A stretch of 64,000 nucleotides of DNA, taken from NCBI GenBank assembly GCA_021792365.1, contig JAJYUT010000001.1, forward strand, positions 310,001 to 374,000. The letters run 5' to 3'. Below the pieces are notes generated by a model. That model saw nothing but the letters and a program-made list of their open reading frames with translations. It ran no database searches and was not told the origin of the DNA. Positions 23,040 to 33,566 of this stretch are shown here, one piece after another. Source of the DNA: Pseudomonadota bacterium (GTDB lineage: Bacteria > Pseudomonadota > Alphaproteobacteria > Dongiales > Dongiaceae). The translations under genes and the position numbers were made by a program. Numbering within the stretch: the stretch's first letter is position 1; each line of letters starts with the position of its first letter.

Positions 23040-25355
23040 CTACCGCATCCGGGCGAGGCTTGCCTGGATGCCGGGGATCAGGCCCGGATCGGCGGTCAGA
23101 TGCGGCGCCTCGGACTCGAGGATGGCGCGGAACAACTCGACGCGCAAACGGTCGAGGTCGAGCGGCTGGGCAAGGCGCCCGCCGATGGCCGAGGCCAGCA
23201 CGTCTATGCAGCGATCGGCAGCGTTGAGCCGACCCCAGAGATAATCGTGCTCGCGCCAGGCGCGGTTGAAGAAGGCGCCGAAGCTCATCAGCGCCGTTCC
23301 CTTCAGCATGATCTTCTCCGATGGCAGTCCGTGGGAATCGGCCGGGCTGATGCGATCGACCAGCACCTCGTTGACCTCGTCCATGTCGGTCCATTGCAGG
23401 ATGGGGAAGGTGATGAGGTCGTAGAAGGCGAAGCCGACATAGGCCATGGTGACCGCGCGCCGGGCCAGCGGCGGCAGGTAGTTGAGCCCCATGAGCGAGA
23501 TGATCTCGTCGAGGTCGTGGTCGATCCGGAGGAGGCTCATCGAGCGCTCCAGAGGCGCGAACAGCTCCAGGGTCGGCGTTTCATAGGCGGCCGCGGCCTG
23601 CGCAACCCGCACGGCCGATGCCGCGGCCTCCGGTCCGTGGCACGGCGTGCTCCAGCGCAGCGTCAGCTTGTCGATCACCTCGTAGAGCGCGCCCTTCAGC
23701 TCGTCGAGCGAGCCGGATTCGATGCGCAGCCCCGCCTCCTCCATGATGCGATAGAGCCCGTTCAGCCGCCGAATCACGAAGCGGATGCGGCGCACGCGAA
23801 AATCGACGTCGAACGACCGCAGGAAGGGGACGAGCCGCGACGCCCCCTCCTCGTTCGGCGCCACCATCCGGTCCAACAGCAGCTCGATCTGCGCGGCATC
23901 CGCCTCGCCGCCGCCTGCCTTGGCCAGGGCCGCGATCAAGGCGGCGAGGCGCTCGATCACGCGCCGCAGCTTCAAGGTCTGGTAGCTGAGATAGGCGAAG
24001 CCGGCGCCGGCATGGGTCCGCTCGTTCGCCGCGCTGCGGTAGCGGCCGATCTCCTCGATCGAGGGCGGATTCTCCAGGTCGTCATCGACGATCTCGTCCA
24101 CCAGCTTTTCCACCTGGGGATCGGCGGCGGCCAGAATCTCCGCCATGCGCCGCGCGCGCTCGTTCCATTCCTGGATCGCCATCAGGTCGTCGGCGATCGG
24201 CTCGTTGCGGGGGATCAGCGCCAGCGCGGTCAGGATGGTGCGGAAGAAGCCGGGTGTTCCCTGATCTCCGCGCTGCGCCGCCTCGCGATGGGGATTGGGA
24301 TCGACATAGATGATGCGGCGCGCCACCTCGCGGCTGGCGGGACGGTTGCCGAGGGCGTGGATGACGGGGGAGAACGGCTTGTTCATCACCACGCTGCCGT
24401 CGATGAAATAGCCGCCGGCATTGGCCGCCGCCTGGGGATCACCGGCCGCGAGCTTCCGGGCGATGAAATCCTGGCGCGTGGGCCAGTCGCGGCCGCGCGC
24501 CACGAGGACGCGGTCCATTTCTGCGACCGTCGCGGGCGGAAACGCGCCGGGGAACGACGCGGTCGCACGGGCGGCGAATACCAGCGCCGGCGCGTCGCCG
24601 CGAGTAAACTCGCTGGCGATCTCGCCCGACAGCGCGCGGCGGCAAGTGAAGGAGACGATGCGGCGATGCTCCGTCTCGTGCACCGCGGGCGGGTCATGCA
24701 ACTGGATGCGATGCCGATGACCGCGATAATCGGTCAGGGTCACGAACAGATCCAGCCGATGGCCCGGCGGCAGCAGGGTGCCGTTGGGCTCCGCGCCGCG
24801 CTCCATCGCATCGCAGGCATCGAGCAGCCAGCCGCTGAACCGCTCGCCCGAGAAGGGCGGCTTGAACCATTGCGCCTGGATGAACTGCCGCATCTTGGCG
24901 CGCGTCTCCGGATCGGCGACCTGCTGGCCGAAGCGGCGGGTCAGGAGATGGTCGAACAACGGCGCCAGCGCCGCCTTGGTCACGCGGCCGAGCGTGCTGC
25001 CCGGGTCGGAAAGGCTGGTGACGTCGGCATTCTTCAGCCACAGCTCCCGGTGGGGCTCCAGCGGCAGGTCGTGCGCCAGGGCCTTTGCCAGCAGCACGCC
25101 GTTGATGCCGCCGGCCGAGGCGCCGGAAATGAGGTCTACGACGACCCTGAGATCAAGCTCGGGCGAGAGCCGACGCAGCAGCTCGTGATAGATCGCGGTG
25201 GAATCGCCCGCCGGCGGAGTCGCGCCGCGCCCGGCGCGGAACAGCTTCGAGGCGCGCACGAGATTGAGGATCTCCCGCGTCACGCCATGGATATAGACCG
25301 CCAGCGAAACGCCGCCATAGAGCACGACCGCCAGCCGCACCTCGATCTGCTTCAT
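23040..25355 (-). CDS. Large patatin-like phospholipase (DUF3376-type C-terminus)
   Basis: A 771-residue patatin-family lipid acyl hydrolase. The N-terminus KQIEVRLAVVLYGGVSLAVY carries the glycine-rich oxyanion segment. The nucleophile serine sits in DLISGASAGGINGVLLAKAL and the catalytic Asp in YFIDGSVVMNKPF, so the Ser-Asp dyad is complete. Beyond residue 400 a long helical region (DLITFPILQWTDMDEVNEVL and others) matches the patatin-related family with a DUF3376 end. No signal peptide is visible, suggesting cytoplasmic or membrane-peripheral action. I chose ATG 25355; another ATG lies 11 codons upstream. Function in the cell is unknown. Confidence 0.85.
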   Translation of the reverse strand: MKQIEVRLAVVLYGGVSLAVYIHGVTREILNLVRASKLFRAGRGATPPAGDSTAIYHELLRRLSPELDLRVVVDLISGASAGGINGVLLAKALAHDLPLEPHRELWLKNADVTSLSDPGSTLGRVTKAALAPLFDHLLTRRFGQQVADPETRAKMRQFIQAQWFKPPFSGERFSGWLLDACDAMERGAEPNGTLLPPGHRLDLFVTLTDYRGHRHRIQLHDPPAVHETEHRRIVSFTCRRALSGEIASEFTRGDAPALVFAARATASFPGAFPPATVAEMDRVLVARGRDWPTRQDFIARKLAAGDPQAAANAGGYFIDGSVVMNKPFSPVIHALGNRPASREVARRIIYVDPNPHREAAQRGDQGTPGFFRTILTALALIPRNEPIADDLMAIQEWNERARRMAEILAAADPQVEKLVDEIVDDDLENPPSIEEIGRYRSAANERTHAGAGFAYLSYQTLKLRRVIERLAALIAALAKAGGGEADAAQIELLLDRMVAPNEEGASRLVPFLRSFDVDFRVRRIRFVIRRLNGLYRIMEEAGLRIESGSLDELKGALYEVIDKLTLRWSTPCHGPEAAASAVRVAQAAAAYETPTLELFAPLERSMSLLRIDHDLDEIISLMGLNYLPPLARRAVTMAYVGFAFYDLITFPILQWTDMDEVNEVLVDRISPADSHGLPSEKIMLKGTALMSFGAFFNRAWREHDYLWGRLNAADRCIDVLASAIGGRLAQPLDLDRLRVELFRAILESEAPHLTADPGLIPGIQASLARMR

Positions 25356-25728
25356 GGAACGGAAGTCCCCGAGTCGCGATCCGGTCATGTTACAGGTCGA
25401 AACGCCGCTTGCCACGCTTTGCCGGCGGCCGATTGCCTAGCAAGGCCGGGGGTGTTCGGCGCTCATGTGACGATGCCGCGACTTTTCACGCCCGCCCCTT
25501 GCGCATCGCGTGCGCGAAGCCAATGTGCTGGGAGAAGCACGCGGCCGAACGATGGTGACGCCGACCACCACATGGACAGGAAACATGCTTTTGCCTGACA
25601 TCATCGTGCAATGCCCCGACCCTATGATCTGTTGTGAGCGCGGCGAGGCGCTCCGCCTTGCTGCGAGGTGAGTGGAATTTTACCGGAACTGCGATTTCAA
25701 GAACATGCATATGCCGAGGAGCGCAACC

Positions 25729-25944: not shown

Positions 25945-26349
25945 CTAGGTGCGCCAGAGCCGTCCGCGGCTTCTGACCTTTTCCAGAGCGCCGAGAATCC
26001 CAGCATCGTCGGGCGCCAGCGCGTGCCCATGCGGCTGCGGCGGAGCGGCGCGCCAGCCGAGGGCGGCGAGAACGGGCGGCGATTCGTAGTAGCTCGCCAG
26101 GGCTTCGGCCAACAGCGCCTTGAAGGCGGGCGCCGCGTTCAGCTCCACGATGCGCAGCTTCGCCACGCGGTCAGCTGGCGCGGCCAACAGGAACGCATCA
26201 ACACCGCCAAGCCCGGCGGCGACGGGCGCGGCCAGCCGCTCCAGTTTCGCGAGATCCAGGCCGGCTTCCGAGGCGCGCGGCAGCGGCGACTCGCCGTCAT
26301 CGCCGGGGAGCATCGTGTCCAGGATCGCGAGCAGCACCGCGCGCTTCAT
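25945..26349 (-). CDS. Gluconate 2-dehydrogenase subunit 3-like protein
   Basis: A 134-residue helical protein (LLAILDTMLPGDDGESPLPR ... ALLAEALASYYESPPVLAAL) that follows a GMC oxidoreductase with overlapping start and stop (ATGA). Small subunits of this kind (subunit 3) accompany membrane FAD-GMC dehydrogenases and carry the Tat signal in some cases; none is visible here. YYESPPVLAALGW is typical of the family C-terminus. It probably chaperones or stabilises the flavoprotein. Confidence 0.7.
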   Translation of the reverse strand: MKRAVLLAILDTMLPGDDGESPLPRASEAGLDLAKLERLAAPVAAGLGGVDAFLLAAPADRVAKLRIVELNAAPAFKALLAEALASYYESPPVLAALGWRAAPPQPHGHALAPDDAGILGALEKVRSRGRLWRT

Positions 26350-27938
26350 GGCTTTTCTCCCAGCAAGGCATCGGCCATTTTCAGGGCCAGCGCGCCGATC
26401 GTGGCGCCGGGATTGCAAGCCCCGACGGTCGGGAACAGGCTGCCATCGACGACGATCAGATTGGGCGCGTCGTGGCAGCATCCAGTGGCATTGGTGACCG
26501 AGGTCGTGGGATCGCTGCCCATGCGCGCGGTGCCGAGCAGGTGCCAGCCGGTGTAGGGCGCCAGCGGCACCCGCACAATGCGATGGGCGCCCGCCGCGCG
26601 CAGCATCTCCTCCGCCCGCGCCAGGCCGAAATCGAGCGCACGCCGTGCTTCGCGCGACAAGGCGTATTCAACCCGCACACCCGGCAAGCCGTCAGCCTCC
26701 GTCGCGCCGGTCAGCGTCACGCGATTGTGCGGCTCCGGCAGGTCTTCCGCCAGCACCAGGACCGCCATGGAATGACGGAACTCCTCGCGCAGCAGGCGCT
26801 GCGCCTCGGCGCCCCAGCCAGGCTCGAGGCGCAAGGCCTGCACCAGCAGCGGGTTCTCCCGCGTCACCTGCAGATGGATGCCACGTTTGAATCCGCGCGT
26901 CTCGTCGGTCTCGTAGAATTCGTGGGAATAGAGTGCGCAGCCGACCGGACCCACCGGGCCGTCCAGTTCCTCCGCGAACATGCCGCGCACATAGGCCGCC
27001 GGATGGAACATGAGGTTGCGGCCGAGCGCGGGTGACGGGAGGCCGGAAGCCAGCAACAGGCGCGCGGTCCCGATGCCGTTCCCCGCCACCACGACAGTCG
27101 AGGCGGGCTGCCAGCATGCGCGCCCCTCACCGTCGCGATAACGGATGCCCTTCGCAAGGCCGCCTTCGAGGACGATCTCCTGCACAATGCAATTCGTGCG
27201 CAGATCAACGCCATGCGCCAGCGCGCGCGGCCAATAGGTGAGATCGGTGGAGGATTTCGCCCCGGTGGCGCAGCCCTGCTGGCATGGGCCGCAGTAATTG
27301 CAGGCTTGCCGCGCGCCCTCCGCGACGGTGTTGATCGCCGCGTCGACCGGCCACCAATGCCAGCCGAGCTCATCGAAGGCCCGGGCAGCCTTGGCGCCGC
27401 CGCGGCCGAGCGGCAAAGGCTGCATGCGGCGCGATCTCTTCGGCGGATAGGCCGGATCGCCGGCGATCCCCGCGACGCCGAACATCTCATCGTTCAGGTC
27501 GTAATAGGGCTCGAGATCGGAATAGGAGAACGGCCAATCATCGCCGACCCCATCAAGTGTGCGCGTCCTGAAATCCGACGGATGCAGGCGCGGGAAATGC
27601 GCCGCCCAGTTGATGGTGGAACCGCCCACGCCGTTCCACATCAGCGGCTTGAACTCCGATCCGGAATCGTCGATCGGATAATCCGCAGAGACGCCATTGC
27701 CGCCCGCCTGCAGCCGCAGATTGGGCGAGGTCGCCCAGGATCCGAGCGCGAGGCGCTGCCAATCTGGCTTCTGTGCCGGAAGATCGGTGCGGTCCAGCCA
27801 ATCCCCGCGTTCGAAGCATACGATGTGCAGGTGCGGCGCGCGGCTGGCGAGGCGCCAGGCAAAGGCCGCGCCGCCCAACCCCGCGCCCACGATCGCCACG
27901 TCGACCGGGTCGCATCTGACCTGTCTGCCGGATGCCAT
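26346..27938 (-). CDS. GMC-family FAD oxidoreductase (gluconate/alcohol dehydrogenase type)
   Basis: A 530-residue flavoprotein with N-terminal FAD motif VAIVGAGLGGAAFAWRLAS and a GMC C-terminal block HLLGTARMGSDPTTSVTNAT followed by LIVVDGSLFPTVGACNPGAT. A cysteine-rich stretch (ACNYCGPCQQGCATGAKSST) is shared with the gluconate 2-dehydrogenase and fructose/sorbosone dehydrogenase subgroup, which oxidises sugars or polyols and passes electrons to cytochrome c. The subunit 3-like gene overlaps its stop. No cytochrome c subunit gene is adjacent, so the electron acceptor is unclear. ATG 27938 is preferred over an upstream in-frame ATG at 27980. Confidence 0.88.
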   Translation of the reverse strand: MASGRQVRCDPVDVAIVGAGLGGAAFAWRLASRAPHLHIVCFERGDWLDRTDLPAQKPDWQRLALGSWATSPNLRLQAGGNGVSADYPIDDSGSEFKPLMWNGVGGSTINWAAHFPRLHPSDFRTRTLDGVGDDWPFSYSDLEPYYDLNDEMFGVAGIAGDPAYPPKRSRRMQPLPLGRGGAKAARAFDELGWHWWPVDAAINTVAEGARQACNYCGPCQQGCATGAKSSTDLTYWPRALAHGVDLRTNCIVQEIVLEGGLAKGIRYRDGEGRACWQPASTVVVAGNGIGTARLLLASGLPSPALGRNLMFHPAAYVRGMFAEELDGPVGPVGCALYSHEFYETDETRGFKRGIHLQVTRENPLLVQALRLEPGWGAEAQRLLREEFRHSMAVLVLAEDLPEPHNRVTLTGATEADGLPGVRVEYALSREARRALDFGLARAEEMLRAAGAHRIVRVPLAPYTGWHLLGTARMGSDPTTSVTNATGCCHDAPNLIVVDGSLFPTVGACNPGATIGALALKMADALLGEKP

Positions 27939-28019
27939 GAACGCTATCGCACGACCAACACGGCGATGATCATGGGGCAAGGACGTGCCTTCGGCAATCG
28001 GCCGCGCATCAACGCGAAT

Positions 28020-28253
28020 TCACGCCCGCCATGTCCCAACGTCGCGCACGAGCTCTTGTGCCGTCGCGTAGAGGCCGGTGCACGCGTTCGATATGCGATT
28101 CCAATAATAGACGTCCTCTTCGTCATTGTAGAGCAGCTGGTCTTCAAAGCCCTGAAACAGGCCATCTGCGCGTGCGATGACCGCAATGCACAGCCGCCCA
28201 CAATTACTGTAGACCGTGCAGACCTCATTGGGAAAGCTTCGGCGTGGTATCAT
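28020..28253 (-). CDS. Small Cys-containing hypothetical protein
   Basis: A 77-residue protein (RRSFPNEVCTVYSNCGRLCI ... DEEDVYYWNRISNACTGLYA) with four cysteines and an acidic, aromatic-rich middle. The composition is protein-like rather than a GC-rich shadow. I do not recognise a family. A strong hairpin lies just upstream, separating it from slipin. Confidence 0.55.
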   Translation of the reverse strand: MIPRRSFPNEVCTVYSNCGRLCIAVIARADGLFQGFEDQLLYNDEEDVYYWNRISNACTGLYATAQELVRDVGTWRA

Positions 28254-28279
28254 AATCGTCCCATTGGCTGCAGCGAGAC

Positions 28280-28307
28280 AGGGCCGCACCGTTCCCGGTG
28301 CGGCCCT
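28280..28307 (-). terminator. Strong hairpin after the slipin gene
   Basis: GGGCCGCACC (28281-28290) and GGTGCGGCCC (28297-28306) form a 10-bp perfect stem, extended by one A-T pair, with a 6-base loop, directly after the slipin stop on the minus strand. There is no T-run; it probably ends the slipin transcript. Confidence 0.6.
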
Positions 28308-28311
28308 GCTA

Positions 28312-29463
28312 TTAGGCGCTTTCGCTCGCCTTCAAGCGGACGAGCTTGCTGAGCAGGGCGTCGAGCCCCTGCCCCTCTCCTGCGTGCAGGTCGATGCGCC
28401 CGACCTTCTCCACCAGGCGCTCGAGGCTCTCGAGCTCCTTCAGACGGAGCAGAAGCGGGTTCTCTTCCATCAGCTTGGCGGTGTTCAGGAGCGAGCGCGT
28501 CGCCGCGGTCTCCTCCTGGCGGCGGATCAGGTTGGCCTTCGCCGTCCGCTCCGCCTCCACCACCTTGTTCACGAGCTCGCGGATCTCGCCGGGCAGGATC
28601 ACGTCCTTCACGCCGAGCTCCGTCACCTCGATGCCGGCGTCGCCGAGACGCTCGCGCACGAAGCTGCGCAGCTCCGCGTCGAGCGCCGACTTGGCCGACA
28701 GCACCTCGTCCAGCGTGCGGGCCGCCACCGCCTCGCGGATCGCGAACTGCACCAGGCGGTACAGCCAGCCATCCACGTCCACGACCGCGCTCACCGCGCG
28801 CTCGGGATCGACGATGCGCCGCAGCGCCGTCAGCGTCACGCGCAGGGCGATGCGGTCCTTGGTCAGCATCTCCTGCGCGGTGATCTCCACCGCCTGCGGA
28901 CGCAGATCGAGGCGCTTCACCTCGACCTTGCGGCCGACGGTCCAGAAGGCGTGACGGCCGGCGGCGAGCCGCTCGACCAGGCGCCCCTCGACGTACAGCA
29001 ATCCCGCCTCGTGGTTCTCGACCACGGTCTCCATCACGTGCGGGTTGCGTGCACGCTCGATCAGCGACAAGTGCCGCGGCGCCACCTTGAGGTCGCTGGT
29101 CACGTCGATGCGCTCGACCGTGACCTCGGTCGCGACCTTCCAGTAGACGCGCACCTGCCAGGGCGCCATCAGGTGCATGGGACGCCCGTCGAGACTGACG
29201 ATCGCCAGTTCGTCGGCACGCGTCTCCGCCGCCTCGAACAAAGCAGCCGCGATTTCCGGCCGCTCCGCCTTCAGGACGGCGTAGCGCTCGGCCGGGAACT
29301 CGGCGCGCACGACGTTGAAGACCTCGACCTTCAGCGCGCCGCGCGGATCGAACAGCCGGTGCAAGCCCGGCCCGAGCACGCGATCGTAGCGGCCGTCGCG
29401 CTGCACCAGCGCGCGCTCTCCATCCTTCACCAGCACACGCAGGAACAAACCCATGCGAGCCAT
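28312..29463 (-). CDS. Slipin (SPFH/stomatin family) protein
   Basis: A 383-residue SPFH-domain protein. The N-terminal 130 residues (LVKDGERALVQRDGRYDRVL) repeat the beta-rich SPFH entry region. The core is LLYVEGRLVERLAAGRHAFW, LVQFAIREAVAARTLDEVLS and GIEVTELGVKDVILPGEIRE, then a coiled-coil helix (VVEAERTAKANLIRRQEETA). This is the slipin subgroup. No N-terminal membrane helix is visible, unlike classical stomatins, so attachment would be peripheral. The gene lies downstream of a structured non-coding stretch and two tRNA-like sequences on the same strand, which is why it may belong to an RNA-stress locus. It has a good ribosome site (GAAGGAGGG) before ATG 29463. Confidence 0.88.
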   Translation of the reverse strand: MARMGLFLRVLVKDGERALVQRDGRYDRVLGPGLHRLFDPRGALKVEVFNVVRAEFPAERYAVLKAERPEIAAALFEAAETRADELAIVSLDGRPMHLMAPWQVRVYWKVATEVTVERIDVTSDLKVAPRHLSLIERARNPHVMETVVENHEAGLLYVEGRLVERLAAGRHAFWTVGRKVEVKRLDLRPQAVEITAQEMLTKDRIALRVTLTALRRIVDPERAVSAVVDVDGWLYRLVQFAIREAVAARTLDEVLSAKSALDAELRSFVRERLGDAGIEVTELGVKDVILPGEIRELVNKVVEAERTAKANLIRRQEETAATRSLLNTAKLMEENPLLLRLKELESLERLVEKVGRIDLHAGEGQGLDALLSKLVRLKASESA

Positions 29464-29519
29464 TGTGCCCTCCTTCCATGCGCCGCGCGGCCCGTGCCAT
29501 GCGGCTTCGTTTCAGATCC

Positions 29520-29792
29520 GAGGAACCGGGTTCCGGACGCGTTTTCCTTTGTGATCGGCGGGCCTGGGCTTCAGCCCGGCGGCGCGCGGGTACAGGATTC
29601 CCGCTCACCGAACGTGCGTTCGGCGTTCGAGAACTGGACTCGCGATCCGCGCGGGCGGTATCCGCCCCGGCGCAGAGCCGGTCTCAAAGTGTCTGGTTCG
29701 TTCGAGAGGCCTTTCGGCCAGACGACCGGACCGCGACTGAAATCCGCGTCCGGTTCCCTTCAGAGGTTATCGGCTTATGAGGCCGAACCGGA
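29520..29792 (-). ncRNA. Candidate structured RNA upstream of slipin
   Basis: Read on the minus strand, this stretch has a dense chain of perfect helices. The 29749-29755/29786-29792 helix (7 bp) encloses a 5-bp hairpin with loop CTCATAA (29770-29786). The 29678-29683/29724-29729 helix (6 bp) encloses 29691-29696/29718-29723 (6 bp) and a GGCC-GAAA-GGCC tetraloop hairpin. Further stems are at 29653-29667, 29608-29623, 29586-29604 and 29566-29577. CTCATAA is identical to the anticodon loop of tRNA-Met. No protein-like frame covers it on this strand. Whether it is a separate RNA or a leader of slipin mRNA cannot be told from sequence. Confidence 0.5.
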
Positions 29793-29793
29793 G

Positions 29794-29867
29794 CGTAGGA
29801 GCGGGAATTGAACCCGCGACACAATGCTTACAAAGCATTTGCTCTACCTTACTGAGCTATCCTCGGT
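29794..29867 (-). tRNA. tRNA-like sequence, anticodon UGU (Thr), imperfect acceptor
   Basis: On the minus strand the D arm (GCTC/GAGC), anticodon stem-loop AATGC-TTTGTAA-GCATT and T arm GCGGG-TTCAATT-CCCGC are perfect, and the loop gives anticodon TGT. The acceptor stem pairs only at positions 1 and 4-7; positions 2-71 and 3-70 are mismatched and no CCA is encoded. It could be a diverged tRNA-Thr or a tRNA-like decoy. It is one base from the next tRNA-like unit. Confidence 0.6.
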
Positions 29868-29868
29868 G

Positions 29869-29940
29869 TGCATTCGACCGGATTCGAACCGGCGACCTCC
29901 GGATTTCTCCGGCGCTCTCCCTGGCTGAGCCACGAATGCC
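29869..29940 (-). tRNA. tRNA-like sequence with aberrant anticodon loop
   Basis: On the minus strand a good acceptor (GCATTC/GAATGC, first pair mismatched), D arm (GCTC/GAGC) and T arm GCCGG-TTCGAAT-CCGGT are visible. The anticodon region is CCGGA-GAAA-TCCGG or CCGG-AGAAAT-CCGG, so it cannot form the standard 7-base loop. This points to a tRNA-like or pseudo-tRNA, possibly from a GAA (Phe) anticodon. It is first in the transcription order tRNA-like, tRNA-like, structured RNA, slipin. Confidence 0.6.
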
Positions 29941-30194
29941 TGCTTCTTCACCTGGCGGAACACGATACACGCAGAGCGCGCCGCGCCGGCCGGGACCAAC
30001 AGCCCGAGCCCTGAGGCCAAGCGAAGGAGCGCGCTTATGACGCAGGCCGGTTTTTCATGCAAGCGGAATCTGCGCCCGAAGGTTGCAGAGCCGCGCCCAT
30101 TGTGGCCGGCTCGACACAGCGCGCAGGACAGCGTGGTGTTGCGTTCAGCATGGGCGGCCCCATATTGCTGGGGTGTTCCAGCGGGATCGTGACC

Positions 30195-30395
30195 ATGTCA
30201 CGGACACTGATCGTCCTCGGATTGTTGCTGGTCGCGACGGGCGTGCTTTGGCCCTGGCTGCAGAAGGCGGGCCTCGGCCGGCTACCGGGCGACTTCGTCA
30301 TCCGGCGGGAGGGCTTCACCTTCTATGCCCCGATCGCGACTTGCATCGTCATCAGCATCGTGCTGTCGGTCATCTTCTGGTTCCTGAGACGGTGA
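30195..30395 (+). CDS. DUF2905 small membrane protein
   Basis: A 66-residue protein with two membrane helices (RTLIVLGLLLVATGVLWPWL and FYAPIATCIVISIVLSVIFW) joined by the conserved loop GLGRLPGDFVIRREGFTFYA, which defines DUF2905. Function is unknown. ATG 30195 fits the family length; the frame is open upstream to 30057. The aldo/keto reductase starts 18 bases after its stop. Confidence 0.85.
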   Translation: MSRTLIVLGLLLVATGVLWPWLQKAGLGRLPGDFVIRREGFTFYAPIATCIVISIVLSVIFWFLRR

Positions 30396-30413
30396 GCTGA
30401 GAAGGAGGTGCTC

Positions 30414-31334
30414 ATGGACTTCCGCCACACCACGCGGCGCGCCGTTCTCGCAGGCGGGGTCGCGCTCGCCGCTTCGACCGTCGCGCGGCCGCTCCACGCC
30501 CAGAGTCCACAAGTTCTCACGCGGCCCATCCCCTCCACAGGCGAGCAGATCCCGGCGATGGGGCTCGGCACGTGGATCACGTTCAATGTCGGGAACGATC
30601 CCGTGCTGCGCGACGAATGCGCCGCTGTGATGGCGGCGTTCTTTGAACACGGCGGGCGCATGATCGATTCCTCGCCGATGTACGGCTCGTCCCAGCCTGT
30701 GATCGGCCACGGCCTGCAGAAGCTCGGCGCGCCGCCGGTCTTCTCCGCCGAGAAGGTCTGGACCTCCTCCGGCGAGGACGGGCCGGAGCAGATGGAGCAA
30801 TCGCGCCGCTATTGGGGCGTGCCGCGCTTCGATCTCATGCAGGTGCACAACCTGCTCGCCTGGCAGGATCACCTGAAGACGCTCCGCGCCATGAAGGAGG
30901 CGGGCCAGGTTCGCTATGTCGGCATCACCACCTCGGAGGGGCGGCGGCATGACTTGTTCGAGGAGATCATGCGCAGCGAGACGCTCGACTTCGTGCAACT
31001 CACCTACAACATCGTCGACCGCGAGGTGGAGCAACGCCTGCTGCCCCTGGCGCGCGACCGTGGCATGGCCGTGATCGTCAACCGCCCGTTCCAGCAGGGC
31101 TATCTCACGCGCCAACTCGAGGGCGAAAAGCTCCCCGACTGGGCGGGCGAGATCGGCGCGAATACCTGGGCGCAGTTCATTCTCAAGTTCATCCTGTCGC
31201 ACCCGGCGGTTACGGTCGCGATCCCGGCGACCACGCGGGTGGACCATGTGCGTGAGAACGTGGCGGCCGCCATCGGCCCGCTGCCCGACGAGGCCATGCG
31301 GCAACGCATGGCCGCCTATGTCGAAGAGCTCTGA
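30414..31334 (+). CDS. Exported aldo/keto reductase with Tat signal
   Basis: A 306-residue aldo/keto reductase. The N-terminus has a twin-arginine export signal (TTRRAVLAGGVALAASTVAR), so it acts in the periplasm with a cofactor loaded before export. The AKR barrel shows MGLGTWITF, MIDSSPMYGSSQPVIG with the catalytic Asp and Tyr, FDLMQVHNLL with the His, YVGITTSEGRRHDLF and VAIPATTRVDHVRENV. The usual catalytic Lys is in SAEKVWTSSG. ATG 30414 follows AAGGAGG. The DUF6064 gene starts directly after the stop, so they are coexpressed. Substrate is unknown. Confidence 0.88.
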   Translation: MDFRHTTRRAVLAGGVALAASTVARPLHAQSPQVLTRPIPSTGEQIPAMGLGTWITFNVGNDPVLRDECAAVMAAFFEHGGRMIDSSPMYGSSQPVIGHGLQKLGAPPVFSAEKVWTSSGEDGPEQMEQSRRYWGVPRFDLMQVHNLLAWQDHLKTLRAMKEAGQVRYVGITTSEGRRHDLFEEIMRSETLDFVQLTYNIVDREVEQRLLPLARDRGMAVIVNRPFQQGYLTRQLEGEKLPDWAGEIGANTWAQFILKFILSHPAVTVAIPATTRVDHVRENVAAAIGPLPDEAMRQRMAAYVEEL

Positions 31335-32045
31335 ATGTCAGAGTGGTGGAGCTATCGCCTCTCGGACTTCCTGCTCTTCTCCCCGCGCACGTATTGGCGT
31401 TTGTTCGAGTTGCACAACGAAGCGCTCTGGCCACTGCCGCTGGTGACGCTGGCGCTCGGGCTCGCGGCGCTCGCTCTTGCTTTGCTGCGGGCGCGGCACC
31501 ACGGAAAGCTGATCGCGTTCGTGCTCGCCATCCTGTGGGCGTTCGTCGGCTGGAGCTTTCTGTGGCAGCGCTACGCCACCATCAACTGGGCGGCCGTCTA
31601 TATCGCACCCGTCTTCGCGCTCGAGGCGCTGCTGCTCGCCCTCCTGGCCGGCGCGCGGGATGGGCTGACGGTGGATCAGCCCGGCTTCCGCCGCATGGCA
31701 GCGATGGCGCTCATCGCGCTCGGGCTTGGCTATCCGCTGCTGGCGCCGCTGTTCGGCCGACCGTGGCAGGGCGCGGAGGTCTTCGGGACGGCGCCCGACC
31801 CGACGGCGATCGCCACGCTCGGCTTCGCGCTTCTCGCGGGCGGGGGGCGGGCGATGCTGCTCTGCCTGGTGCCGCTGCTCTGGTGCGCCGCAAGCGGCGT
31901 TACGCTCTGGGCGATGGACGATGCGCAGGCCTGGGTGCTTTTCGCGTCCGCCGCGCTGAGCATTGCGGCCCTCACCGCTGTTATCTGGACGGCCTTTCAC
32001 CGGCCCATCCGCACAGCAGGGCTGCGGCAGAAGGGGCCGGTATAG
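31335..32045 (+). CDS. DUF6064 family membrane protein
   Basis: A 236-residue integral membrane protein opening with WWSYRLSDFLLFSPRTYWRL, the signature of DUF6064, then about seven hydrophobic helices. Conserved aromatic clusters (FVGWSFLWQRYATINWAAVY) lie near the third helix. Function is unknown. It begins with ATG right after the reductase stop, so translation is probably coupled. Confidence 0.8.
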   Translation: MSEWWSYRLSDFLLFSPRTYWRLFELHNEALWPLPLVTLALGLAALALALLRARHHGKLIAFVLAILWAFVGWSFLWQRYATINWAAVYIAPVFALEALLLALLAGARDGLTVDQPGFRRMAAMALIALGLGYPLLAPLFGRPWQGAEVFGTAPDPTAIATLGFALLAGGGRAMLLCLVPLLWCAASGVTLWAMDDAQAWVLFASAALSIAALTAVIWTAFHRPIRTAGLRQKGPV

Positions 32046-32110
32046 CGGCCGTTTCAATTCGAAACTGCGCCGGTGTAGCATGATCAATAGAACGAGCGAG
32101 CGCCGAGAGC

Positions 32111-32830
32111 ATGCCTCCTGATCGCGACAAGCTGCCTGGAGCGCCCACGACCAGCACCGAAGTGGACGCTTTCCTGAAAAAGTTGACGACGGCGCCACGC
32201 ATCCACCCGGCGCCGGGTCAGCGTGGCCGCCTGATGTTCGCACTCGATGCCACGGCGAGTCGGCAGCCGACTTGGAATCAGGCCTGTCATCTCCAGGCGG
32301 ACATGTTCAAGGAGACCGCTGCGCTTGGCGGTCTCGACATCCAGCTCGTCTTCTATCGCGGCTTCGCCGAGTTCCGCGCCAGCGAGTGGTTCGGAGAAGC
32401 CGCCGGCTTGCTGAAGTATATGAGCGCCGTCACCTGCCTTGGCGGCAAGACACAGATCGGCAGGGTTTTGAGTTTTGCCATCGATGAGACGAAGCGCCGA
32501 CGGGTCAATGCGCTGGTCTTCGTAGGTGATTGCATGGAGGAAGACATCGACGCACTTTGCCACAAGGCGGGCGAACTGGGCTTGCTCGGCGTGCCGGTCT
32601 TTGTTTTTCACGAGGGCAGCGATCCGACAGCGGCAGCTGCGTTCCGGCAGATCGCGCGCCTGACGCATGGCGCCTATTGCCCGTTCGATTCCAACAGTGC
32701 GCGACAGCTGCGCGAGCTGCTCAGTGCGGTCGCGGTCTATGCCGCTGGCGGACCCGCGGCGCTGGAGGACTACAGCCGGCGGGCAGGTGGTGCGACCTTG
32801 CTGCTCGCGCGGCAGGTCCCTAGGTCCTAG
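32111..32830 (+). CDS. VWA-domain protein
   Basis: A 239-residue protein with a von Willebrand factor A fold. The metal-ion site begins MFALDATASRQPTWNQ (DxTxS), with the later Thr in TCLGGKTQIGRVL and Asp in LVFVGDCMEED. There is no signal peptide or membrane helix. The J-domain gene starts 16 bases after its stop, suggesting a chaperone-linked role for the pair. Similar VWA proteins act as adaptors in metal-dependent binding; the partner is not visible. Confidence 0.8.
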   Translation: MPPDRDKLPGAPTTSTEVDAFLKKLTTAPRIHPAPGQRGRLMFALDATASRQPTWNQACHLQADMFKETAALGGLDIQLVFYRGFAEFRASEWFGEAAGLLKYMSAVTCLGGKTQIGRVLSFAIDETKRRRVNALVFVGDCMEEDIDALCHKAGELGLLGVPVFVFHEGSDPTAAAAFRQIARLTHGAYCPFDSNSARQLRELLSAVAVYAAGGPAALEDYSRRAGGATLLLARQVPRS

Positions 32831-32846
32831 CGACAGGGCGGAGTGC

Positions 32847-33566
32847 ATGTCGCCTGGGTACCTCCTGCTCGGCCTCCTCGTTCTCGCGGGCACCATCCTC
32901 CTGCTGCGCGCGTTTGCGTCGTCCAGTCCGGAAGGCCTGACGCGCGCGGTGCGGCGCGTCGCGATCGCTTCGGGAGCACTCGGCGTTCTGTTGCTGCTCT
33001 TCCGGGCGCCGCTCGGTTCCGTCCTGGTTGGCCTTGGTGCCGTTCTGCCCCTGACGCTGCGATGGCGCGCCTTGTGGCCAGCATTCGGGCCGGCGCCGCA
33101 CCAGCCTGCAGGCAAGACCTCGCGCATCGACACGAAGTATCTGCGCATGGCGCTCGACCACGACACGGGCGCGCTCGACGGGTTGGTGCTGGCCGGCAAG
33201 CATCGCGACGCCCTGTTGAGCAAGCTGACGCTGGAGCAGCTTCTCGAGGTAAGGGAGGATTGCCTGGCTGGCGATATGGAGGGAGTGCCGCTGATCGAGG
33301 CCTATCTCGACCGGATCCACGGCGCGGCCTGGCGCGGCGCAAGCGCCAGCCAGCGCTCCTCCGGGGACGAGGCCCCGAAGCGTGCTTCGGCTGCGATGAC
33401 CCGCGAGGAGGCGCTGCAGGTGCTGGGCCTCTCAGCCAGCGCCACCGAGGCGGAGATCCGCGCCGCATATCACAACCTGATCCGCAAATTGCACCCGGAC
33501 CATGGCGGCTCCGATTATCTGGCGGCCAAGGTCAATCAGGCCCGGGACATCCTGATCGGCACCTGA
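32847..33566 (+). CDS. Membrane-anchored DnaJ-domain protein
   Basis: A 239-residue protein with two N-terminal membrane helices (SPGYLLLGLLVLAGTILLLR and GALGVLLLLFRAPLGSVLV), a helical middle and a C-terminal J domain of about 55 residues. The J domain includes the HPD tripeptide (LIRKLHPDHGGSDYLAAKVN) needed to stimulate Hsp70/DnaK. The layout resembles the TIM14/DjlC type of membrane co-chaperone. It follows the VWA gene at 16 bases. ATG 32847 gives the complete first helix. Confidence 0.85.
   Translation: MSPGYLLLGLLVLAGTILLLRAFASSSPEGLTRAVRRVAIASGALGVLLLLFRAPLGSVLVGLGAVLPLTLRWRALWPAFGPAPHQPAGKTSRIDTKYLRMALDHDTGALDGLVLAGKHRDALLSKLTLEQLLEVREDCLAGDMEGVPLIEAYLDRIHGAAWRGASASQRSSGDEAPKRASAAMTREEALQVLGLSASATEAEIRAAYHNLIRKLHPDHGGSDYLAAKVNQARDILIGT

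Follow-up and report, generated by a model that had tools for sequence, protein, structure and literature searches.

In a 2016 article in NAR, Burroughs and Aravind are reported to have predicted that in RNA-repair systems SPFH/Band-7 modules act as scaffolds and have a novel tRNA-like RNA as their cognate partner. In this class, an SPFH gene adjoins a tRNA-like RNA. Here we describe a minus-strand leader RNA and slipin locus (28312-30062) within a 64-kb window, that is, the whole stretch of DNA analysed, from a Dongiaceae assembly (contig JAJYUT010000001.1). The window's slipin is likewise an SPFH/Band-7 gene with a tRNA-like RNA immediately upstream. Relatives of the locus adjoin or coexist with RtcB, RtcR or RlaP; the window's own genome lacks RtcB, RtcA, RtcR and RlaP. 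The locus also shows two tRNA-like units with an anticodon-arm mimic, an anticodon that is hypervariable in relatives, and a three-repeat slipin. The leader is conserved and folded, is strictly paired with slipin and turns over its anticodon, and no description of it was found in titles or abstract openings among the matches listed. Judged from the alignments, what is new here is a unit 2 scaffold that is kept while its anticodon appears to turn over faster than the four-fold degenerate sites of the slipin gene.

Several other systems resemble parts of this locus. The RtcR-controlled rsr-yrlBA-rtcBA operon (Hughes et al. 2020, PMC7790460) places a tRNA-like noncoding RNA beside a scaffold-type protein, and among the present loci Citrobacter has RtcR beside a slipin; the protein in that operon is Ro60, whereas here it is an SPFH protein, YrlA scores below cut-off and RtcR is absent. 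The paper on that operon reports a response of RtcR to fragments of tRNA, suggests YrlA as a possible competitive inhibitor of an anticodon nuclease, and notes that in Deinococcus a Y RNA tethers Ro60 to PNPase. In PMC13086221, the SPFH gene PaFlo8 of Pseudomonas aeruginosa PA14 lies among rtcA, rtcB and rtcR; it differs from the present case in that no word starting with tRNA occurs in the main text of that paper. A trcR mutant of Anabaena de-represses the slipin gene alr0740 along with rtcB (PMC10272220); the likeness lies in a slipin gene that is co-regulated with rtcB under translational stress. RlaP is described in PMC6514570 and PMC7824862.

Read from its upstream end, the locus comprises the following features.

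30034-30062, minus strand: promoter-like pair TTGCAT-17 nt-CATAAG (nt, nucleotides), a candidate by consensus match only and without chance control
29955-30031, minus strand: 5' stretch of the leader, with the motif GTGTTCCGC (29955-29963) at its 3' end, from alignments of alphaproteobacterial relatives
29868-29939, minus strand: tRNA-like unit 1, from ARAGORN; Rfam tRNA 55.1 bits
29793-29866, minus strand: tRNA-like unit 2, ARAGORN tRNA-Thr(UGU); Rfam tRNA 54.5 bits
29770-29786, minus strand: unit 3, a bare anticodon-arm mimic TCGGC-CTCATAA-GCCGA, supported by covariation, with the loop of tRNA-Met
29726-29753, minus strand: conserved helix CCGGACGCG...CGC.GTCCGG, with pairing in 99.2% of cells and no variation in 5 of 9 pairs
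29667-29681, minus strand: conserved hairpin CCGGC-TCTGC-GCCGG, with four consensus pairs that 31-32 of 32 rows retain
29464-29725, minus strand: remainder of the leader as far as the slipin start, GC-rich and structured, with a conserved GGCCCGC at 29558-29564, from alignment and consensus fold
28312-29463, minus strand: slipin, Pfam Band_7, E 4.5e-31

A sequence-only reading of the window had described two minus-strand tRNA-like units one base apart, and ARAGORN run over all 64 kb returned exactly these two, at 29868-29939 and 29793-29866. Unit 1 possesses a perfect 7-bp acceptor and no CCA, and a GAAA tetraloop (29904-29907) replaces its anticodon loop; since the arm CCGGA-GAAA-TCCGG is closed by the tetraloop, a 7-nt anticodon loop is impossible. 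Unit 2 possesses a normal anticodon arm (29823-29839) with the loop TTTGTAA (29828-29834) and the anticodon UGU; its acceptor, CCGAGGA/TCCTACG, carries two mismatches (by eye) and is again not followed by CCA. The defects had thus been rightly assigned, the mismatched acceptor without CCA to one unit (unit 2) and the impossible anticodon loop to the other (unit 1). Neither unit combines a paired acceptor, CCA and a 7-nt anticodon loop, as a functional tRNA would; in the Infernal search that had been proposed, both score far above the Rfam tRNA gathering score of 29. The CTCATAA loop of unit 3 (29775-29781) is identical to a tRNA-Met loop of the own genome, as had been noticed, and the structured leader is followed by slipin, where Band_7 was detected at 28312-29463. 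The 482-nt leader is stabler than shuffled sequences (z -3.45; 0 of 100 shuffles as stable). Besides tRNA, Rfam families gave only sub-threshold matches in 26000-33000, among them YrlA at 22.5 bits against a gathering score of 69. Among relatives, the unit 1 loop ranges from 3 to 7 nt, and unit 1 is shortened or lost in three loci (L035, L046, L060); a Burkholderia unit carries a GAAA tetraloop in its anticodon arm, as does unit 1 of the window. The motif GTGTTCCGT is found in the E. coli and Citrobacter leaders too, and GTGTTCCG in only one of the 26 further loci described below (L185).

We queried the conservation of the leader at loci drawn by a GTDB slipin search, from which the best 80 of 547 relatives were taken. 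Among the matches listed, the closest slipins belong to Dongia deserti (93%) and a Rhodospirillum metagenome-assembled genome (91%), from which the source of the window is probably a Dongia-like alphaproteobacterium, and the record names of these best 80 of 547 include Proteobacteria, Acidobacteria, Bacteroidota (Flavobacterium, Myroides, Saprospiraceae) and Acetivibrio. ARAGORN detected a unit at most 1.5 kb upstream of slipin in 61 of the 80 loci, and cmscan of ten 13-kb loci (130,788 bases) gave 12 matches above gathering, all of them tRNA units upstream of slipin; eight of these ten loci were positive, with L080 and L083 without a match. Slipin similarity was also used to draw loci from the class, where 5 of 289 genomes matched, and from the phylum, where 23 of 398 did, both counts including the own genome; this led to 26 further loci that may overlap with the 80. 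Upstream of slipin, ARAGORN detected a unit in 18 of these, and a unit or T-arm is present in 24; downstream, the ARAGORN unit was found in 0 of 26 and a T-arm in 1 of 26. Because ARAGORN alone under-counts (61/80; 18/26), a uniform T-arm search with controls was used. Of 105 leaders 104 were positive, whereas the opposite strand of the leaders gave 9 of 105 and the sequence downstream of slipin 2 of 103. The linkage to slipin that was seen in the window therefore recurs elsewhere. Two loci were left out of the unit counts, L064 (269 nt upstream) and L192 (82 nt upstream), and the two other SPFH matches in the own genome have no tRNA-like unit upstream.

Encoded CCA follows the first detected unit in 34 of 104 leaders, none of the 75 second units and both of the two third units; the contrast between first and second units suggests that they may be processed differently. 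In three Competibacteraceae loci (L066, L069, L075), the second unit resembles, by eye, a D-arm-less tRNA, with a short acceptor, an anticodon arm (loop CTGTCAC in L066) and a T-arm.

Base pairing is kept across these relatives. An alignment of 27 sequences spans unit 2, the anticodon-arm mimic and the helix that follows; 98.7% of its cells pair, against 29 to 49% in slid-alignment controls. Seven pairs are changed on both sides, compared with 1.6 in shuffles (0 of 500 shuffles), and these two-sided changes are located in the unit 2 anticodon stem (3 of 5 pairs) and the unit 3 mimic (4 of 5 pairs; 96.3% of cells paired). The D-arm, the T-arm and the next helix hardly vary, and so provide little information on covariation. 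In the consensus fold of the whole leader, 29 of 78 pairs have a row changed on both sides. The comparison upstream of slipin that had been proposed as a check thus came out on the side of conservation. One locus was left out of the protein alignment because of a stop codon (L049), and three out of the alignment A3 because the pattern was unmatched (L054, L050, L048).

The leader and the protein also co-occur. A covariance model, R1, built from an alignment that is mostly Bradyrhizobium, was run on 98 genomes of one genus, presumably Bradyrhizobium. Under the stricter search filters that come into force above 40 genomes, it scored at least 137 bits in 29 genomes and, among the matches listed, at most 67 bits in the others, a clean separation that tells little about other genera, given what R1 was built from; the matches of at most 67 bits we take to be ordinary tRNAs. 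Full-length slipin is present in exactly the R1-positive 29 of 98 genomes, on the same contig and strand, and the R1 match lies 278-340 nt 5' of slipin in all 29. As the RNA and slipin occupy the same 29 of 98 genomes, the cassette is accessory, and RNA and protein are gained or lost together. In one further genome of the genus (G712, C1:3834471-3834881), slipin is matched only in part (residues 247-383, at 88% identity) and a full match to the RNA is missing, which looks as if protein and RNA had decayed together.

These data bear on the reading that would make the units ordinary tRNA genes in decay, or else a site of tRNA integration, placed upstream of slipin by accident. Both units do score as tRNAs in Rfam, yet imperfectly built ones, and some first units (34/104) keep their CCA. 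Accidental decay would not yield an association across Proteobacteria, Acidobacteria, Bacteroidota and Acetivibrio records, a perfect co-occurrence (29/29), or conserved non-tRNA helices with covariation; moreover, the units are not near copies of tRNAs of the own genome or of one Bradyrhizobium genome (best scores 48/72 nt and 52/74 nt). We consider this reading exceedingly improbable, and it is refuted as far as the comparative data reach. The comparative evidence identifies the leader as a conserved RNA rather than as tRNA genes in decay.

The fixed position of the RNA bears on another alternative, a cis-acting leader whose units act only within the slipin mRNA, as targets of RNase P/Z or of tRNA-modifying or tRNA-binding enzymes, or as an attenuator that would be released upon tRNA damage. 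The same-strand R1 match at 278-340 nt in all 29 genomes fits such a leader, as does a promoter-like pair, mostly TTGCAA-17-TATTAG, that lies ~100 nt upstream of GTGTTCCG in 40 of 61 alphaproteobacterial leaders, including that of the window. A regulator that reads tRNA identity would need a stable anticodon, yet the anticodon changes among close relatives; further points against it are the mismatched unit 2 acceptor in the window and the second units, none of which (0/75) is followed by CCA. We judge an exclusively cis-acting leader distinctly unlikely.

The anticodon of unit 2 is the part that changes. In 24 aligned Bradyrhizobium rows, its three columns are the most variable of the unit (1.83, 1.55 and 1.52 bits), and the adjoining A37 is invariant. 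Across the 42 of 50 Bradyrhizobium loci with an arm of 5-7-5 geometry, we counted 16 different anticodons, flanked by A37 in 42 of 42 loops and by U33 in 32 of 42; the other eight loci were excluded from the anticodon counts and from the comparison with four-fold sites. In 20 disjoint close pairs, 23 of 60 anticodon sites differ, against 638 of 4464 four-fold sites of slipin (Fisher p 5e-6) and 32 of 1000 sites in the rest of unit 2 (p 1e-16), in tests that assume independent sites. The anticodon thus differs at 2.7x the rate of the adjoining slipin four-fold sites, a ratio inflated to the extent that the 91% GC content of those sites lowers their divergence. Anticodon change in excess of neutral is probable rather than proven from such sequence comparisons.

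The loops that arise resemble those of real tRNAs. Ten of 31 distinct unit 2 loops equal real tRNA anticodon loops, compared with 3.3 in column shuffles (0 of 5000), the reference being 56 distinct real loops from one Bradyrhizobium genome and the own genome. This test covered 52 of 61 leaders; six were left out as their arm is not 5-7-5 and three as unit 2 was not located. With matches above shuffles, the unit 2 loop behaves like an imitation of a tRNA loop with an exchangeable anticodon.

Taken together, these observations suggest a model in which the leader is a bait or sensor. With middling confidence, we propose that the RNA imitates tRNA, is partnered with a soluble SPFH cage and presents anticodon nucleases with exchangeable anticodon loops. 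A single transcript would carry the structured leader, whose two tRNA-like domains precede a bare anticodon arm, and then the soluble three-repeat slipin. The leader RNA would partner the slipin ring or cage, and its fake anticodon loops would be presented to anticodon nucleases such as toxins, phage-exclusion nucleases and colicin-type enzymes; a cut bait could then spare real tRNAs or signal damage. In this role, the anticodon of unit 2 would be free, or pressed, to change, and the fold, A37 and mostly U33, which give the tRNA look, would be kept. RtcR probably activates the cassette of some enterics via sigma-54 upon tRNA cutting, and the cassette would work there beside RlaP or RtcB. The own genome, like certain other alphaproteobacterial genomes, is without these repair enzymes and probably relies on a sigma-70-like promoter. 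Since the own genome lacks the four repair families, the RNA there would be a decoy or sensor without RtcB re-ligation.

A more far-reaching version, in which a decoy array has been diversified by an arms race with anticodon nucleases, within a vault-like SPFH-cage ribonucleoprotein (RNP) that works without known Rtc-type repair enzymes, is one that we hold only tentatively. Were it true, anticodon hypervariability would be a record of the nucleases faced by each lineage. A near-frozen tRNA-like scaffold with an anticodon that differs more than synonymous sites would be a rare conflict signature in RNA, and anticodon turnover is the point most likely to surprise specialists. The bait model turns a vague association of SPFH proteins, tRNA-like RNA and RNA repair into a testable question, namely which anticodon nuclease matches each bait. 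A model host is at hand, as a query of a related slipin and RlaP cassette was covered to at least 80% in 1617 of 5426 complete E. coli genomes; the leader there holds only a tRNA remnant (L084).

A number of observations weigh against the bait model. Unit 1 of the window has no anticodon loop to offer. Among Bradyrhizobium loci, U33 is absent from 10 of 42 loops, and 8 of 50 loci have no 5-7-5 arm or are unmatched by the pattern; the independence assumed by Fisher's test, the GC-rich four-fold sites and the genus-bound origin of R1, all noted above, belong here as well. Unit 3 loops equal real tRNA loops in 5 of 23 cases against 2.8 shuffled (P 0.076), which is not beyond chance, in an automatic assignment that misplaced some loops, for example in L018. 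In PMC7790460, no YrlA fragments were detected, so YrlA itself was uncut. One slipin (L182) has no unit detected upstream, and the Burkholderia unit found by ARAGORN was missed by Rfam. In the E. coli (L084) and Citrobacter (L085) leaders, a tRNA unit was found neither by ARAGORN nor by Rfam and is reduced, by eye, to a T-arm, so a full bait is not universally kept. What the comparisons show is conservation, fold, the pairing with slipin and the turnover of the anticodon; a single transcript, promoter use, RNA-protein binding, nuclease cutting and protection are inferred. Of the function that the sequence-only reading had put forward, a tRNA mimic acting with slipin to report or buffer tRNA damage, the mimic proved conserved and strictly linked to this slipin subfamily; the reporting or buffering of damage is not established.

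The distribution of repair genes is pertinent to a further alternative, a scaffold RNA without a bait role that docks the slipin cage on tRNAs, ribosomes or repair enzymes, its anticodon varying because it is unread. Within 6-kb flanks, RtcB was found at 8 of the 80 loci; genome-wide, in the 48 of the 80 locus genomes that were searched, it is present somewhere in 36 and absent from 12, the completeness of those 12 not being given. RlaP lies beside slipin in both enterics: the Citrobacter order is rtcR, 448 bp, slipin and a nucleotidyltransferase (Pfam RtcR, Band_7 and RlaP, the last an RNA-repair polymerase-beta family), and in E. coli H5 (L207:4513-7399) slipin and RlaP lie between yjbD and lysC. 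A scaffold would agree with these arrangements, with the non-anticodon loop of unit 1 and with the mention, in PMC7824862, of a Ro-type RNP that has a tRNA-like partner and serves as an RNA-repair platform. A free loop, in turn, would not be expected to retain A37 in all 42 loops and U33 in 32 of them, to equal real tRNA loops above shuffles or to outpace four-fold sites. The own genome (5.43 Mb, completeness 100) also gave zero matches to each of the four repair families searched, RtcB (PF01139), RtcR (PF06956), RtcA (PF01137) and RlaP (PF10127), in a search whose RtcB control matched in 9 of 14 genomes. By our analysis, a scaffold without a bait role is rather improbable. The suggested link to RtcR-controlled operons stands for some relatives, through the Citrobacter rtcR, sigma-54-like sites and nearby RtcB (8/80), and not for the own genome, which has neither RtcR nor RtcB. 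The idea that a stand-alone version would be new does not survive, since 12 of 48 locus genomes are also without RtcB and a tRNA-like SPFH partner is reported to have been predicted in 2016. Just past the slipin and RlaP cassette of E. coli H5 lies a zeta toxin family gene.

Promoter elements differ between these groups. Sigma-54-like sites (TGGCAC and a -12 element) precede the E. coli, Citrobacter and Burkholderia leaders by eye, and occur in 5 of the 26 further loci, a count without chance control. In the window, the sigma-54 -24/-12 pattern with at most one mismatch gave 18 sites against 17.8 expected, none of them at 29464-30120. The alphaproteobacterial GGCTGGCGCG stretch was considered as a degenerate sigma-54 site and rejected, as its spacing is off (by eye).

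On the protein, Pfam detected Band_7 families only. The AlphaFold2 model (mean predicted local distance difference test score 83.3, predicted template modelling score 0.59) predicts three tandem SPFH1-like beta repeats, then an SPFH core and a long helix. The three repeats are homologous by HHalign (pairwise E 1e-9 to 6e-12), and hydropathy, the only method applied, revealed no membrane segment (maximum 19-residue mean 1.11). The fold is stomatin-, prohibitin- and HflK-like: stomatin/slipin, HflK and QmcA structures (9oh9, 3bk6, 7vhq, 8z5g) share the SPFH core and long helix, and the best matches reach Z ~14 to 16 (VIA-align) and Foldseek E down to 1.5e-15. In contrast to canonical membrane slipins and stomatins, the window's protein has two extra N-terminal SPFH1-like repeats and no membrane segment by hydropathy. 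The major vault protein (MVP) aligns through its last repeat, SPFH-like shoulder and helix with slipin 143-344 (root mean square deviation 3.2 over 194, Z 12.2); for the MVP entry 4hl8 only, slipin 8-360 was aligned (7.7 over 251, Z 10.5). Vaults are RNPs, a trait that they would share with the proposed slipin RNP. MVP was not among the structure matches of the N-terminal repeats alone, slipin and MVP gave no sequence match up to E 10, and no Pfam vault family was found in 27 slipin members. As the MVP match is limited to the SPFH core and spares the N-terminal repeats, vault membership is kept as speculation.

A phage origin was pursued and rejected: 2.9 million viral contigs scanned for close slipin relatives gave 28 pattern matches, none confirmed by tblastn, and the viral structure library gave no specific match, its hits being SPFH proteins from giant viruses and from phages. 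Neighbours of slipin in the window include genes for GMC oxidoreductase (26346-27980), patatin, DUF2905, aldo/keto reductase and DUF6064 proteins. The patatin-like phospholipase, which carries DUF3376, is encoded past the GMC oxidoreductase at 23040-25415 on the minus strand; both are unrelated to slipin.

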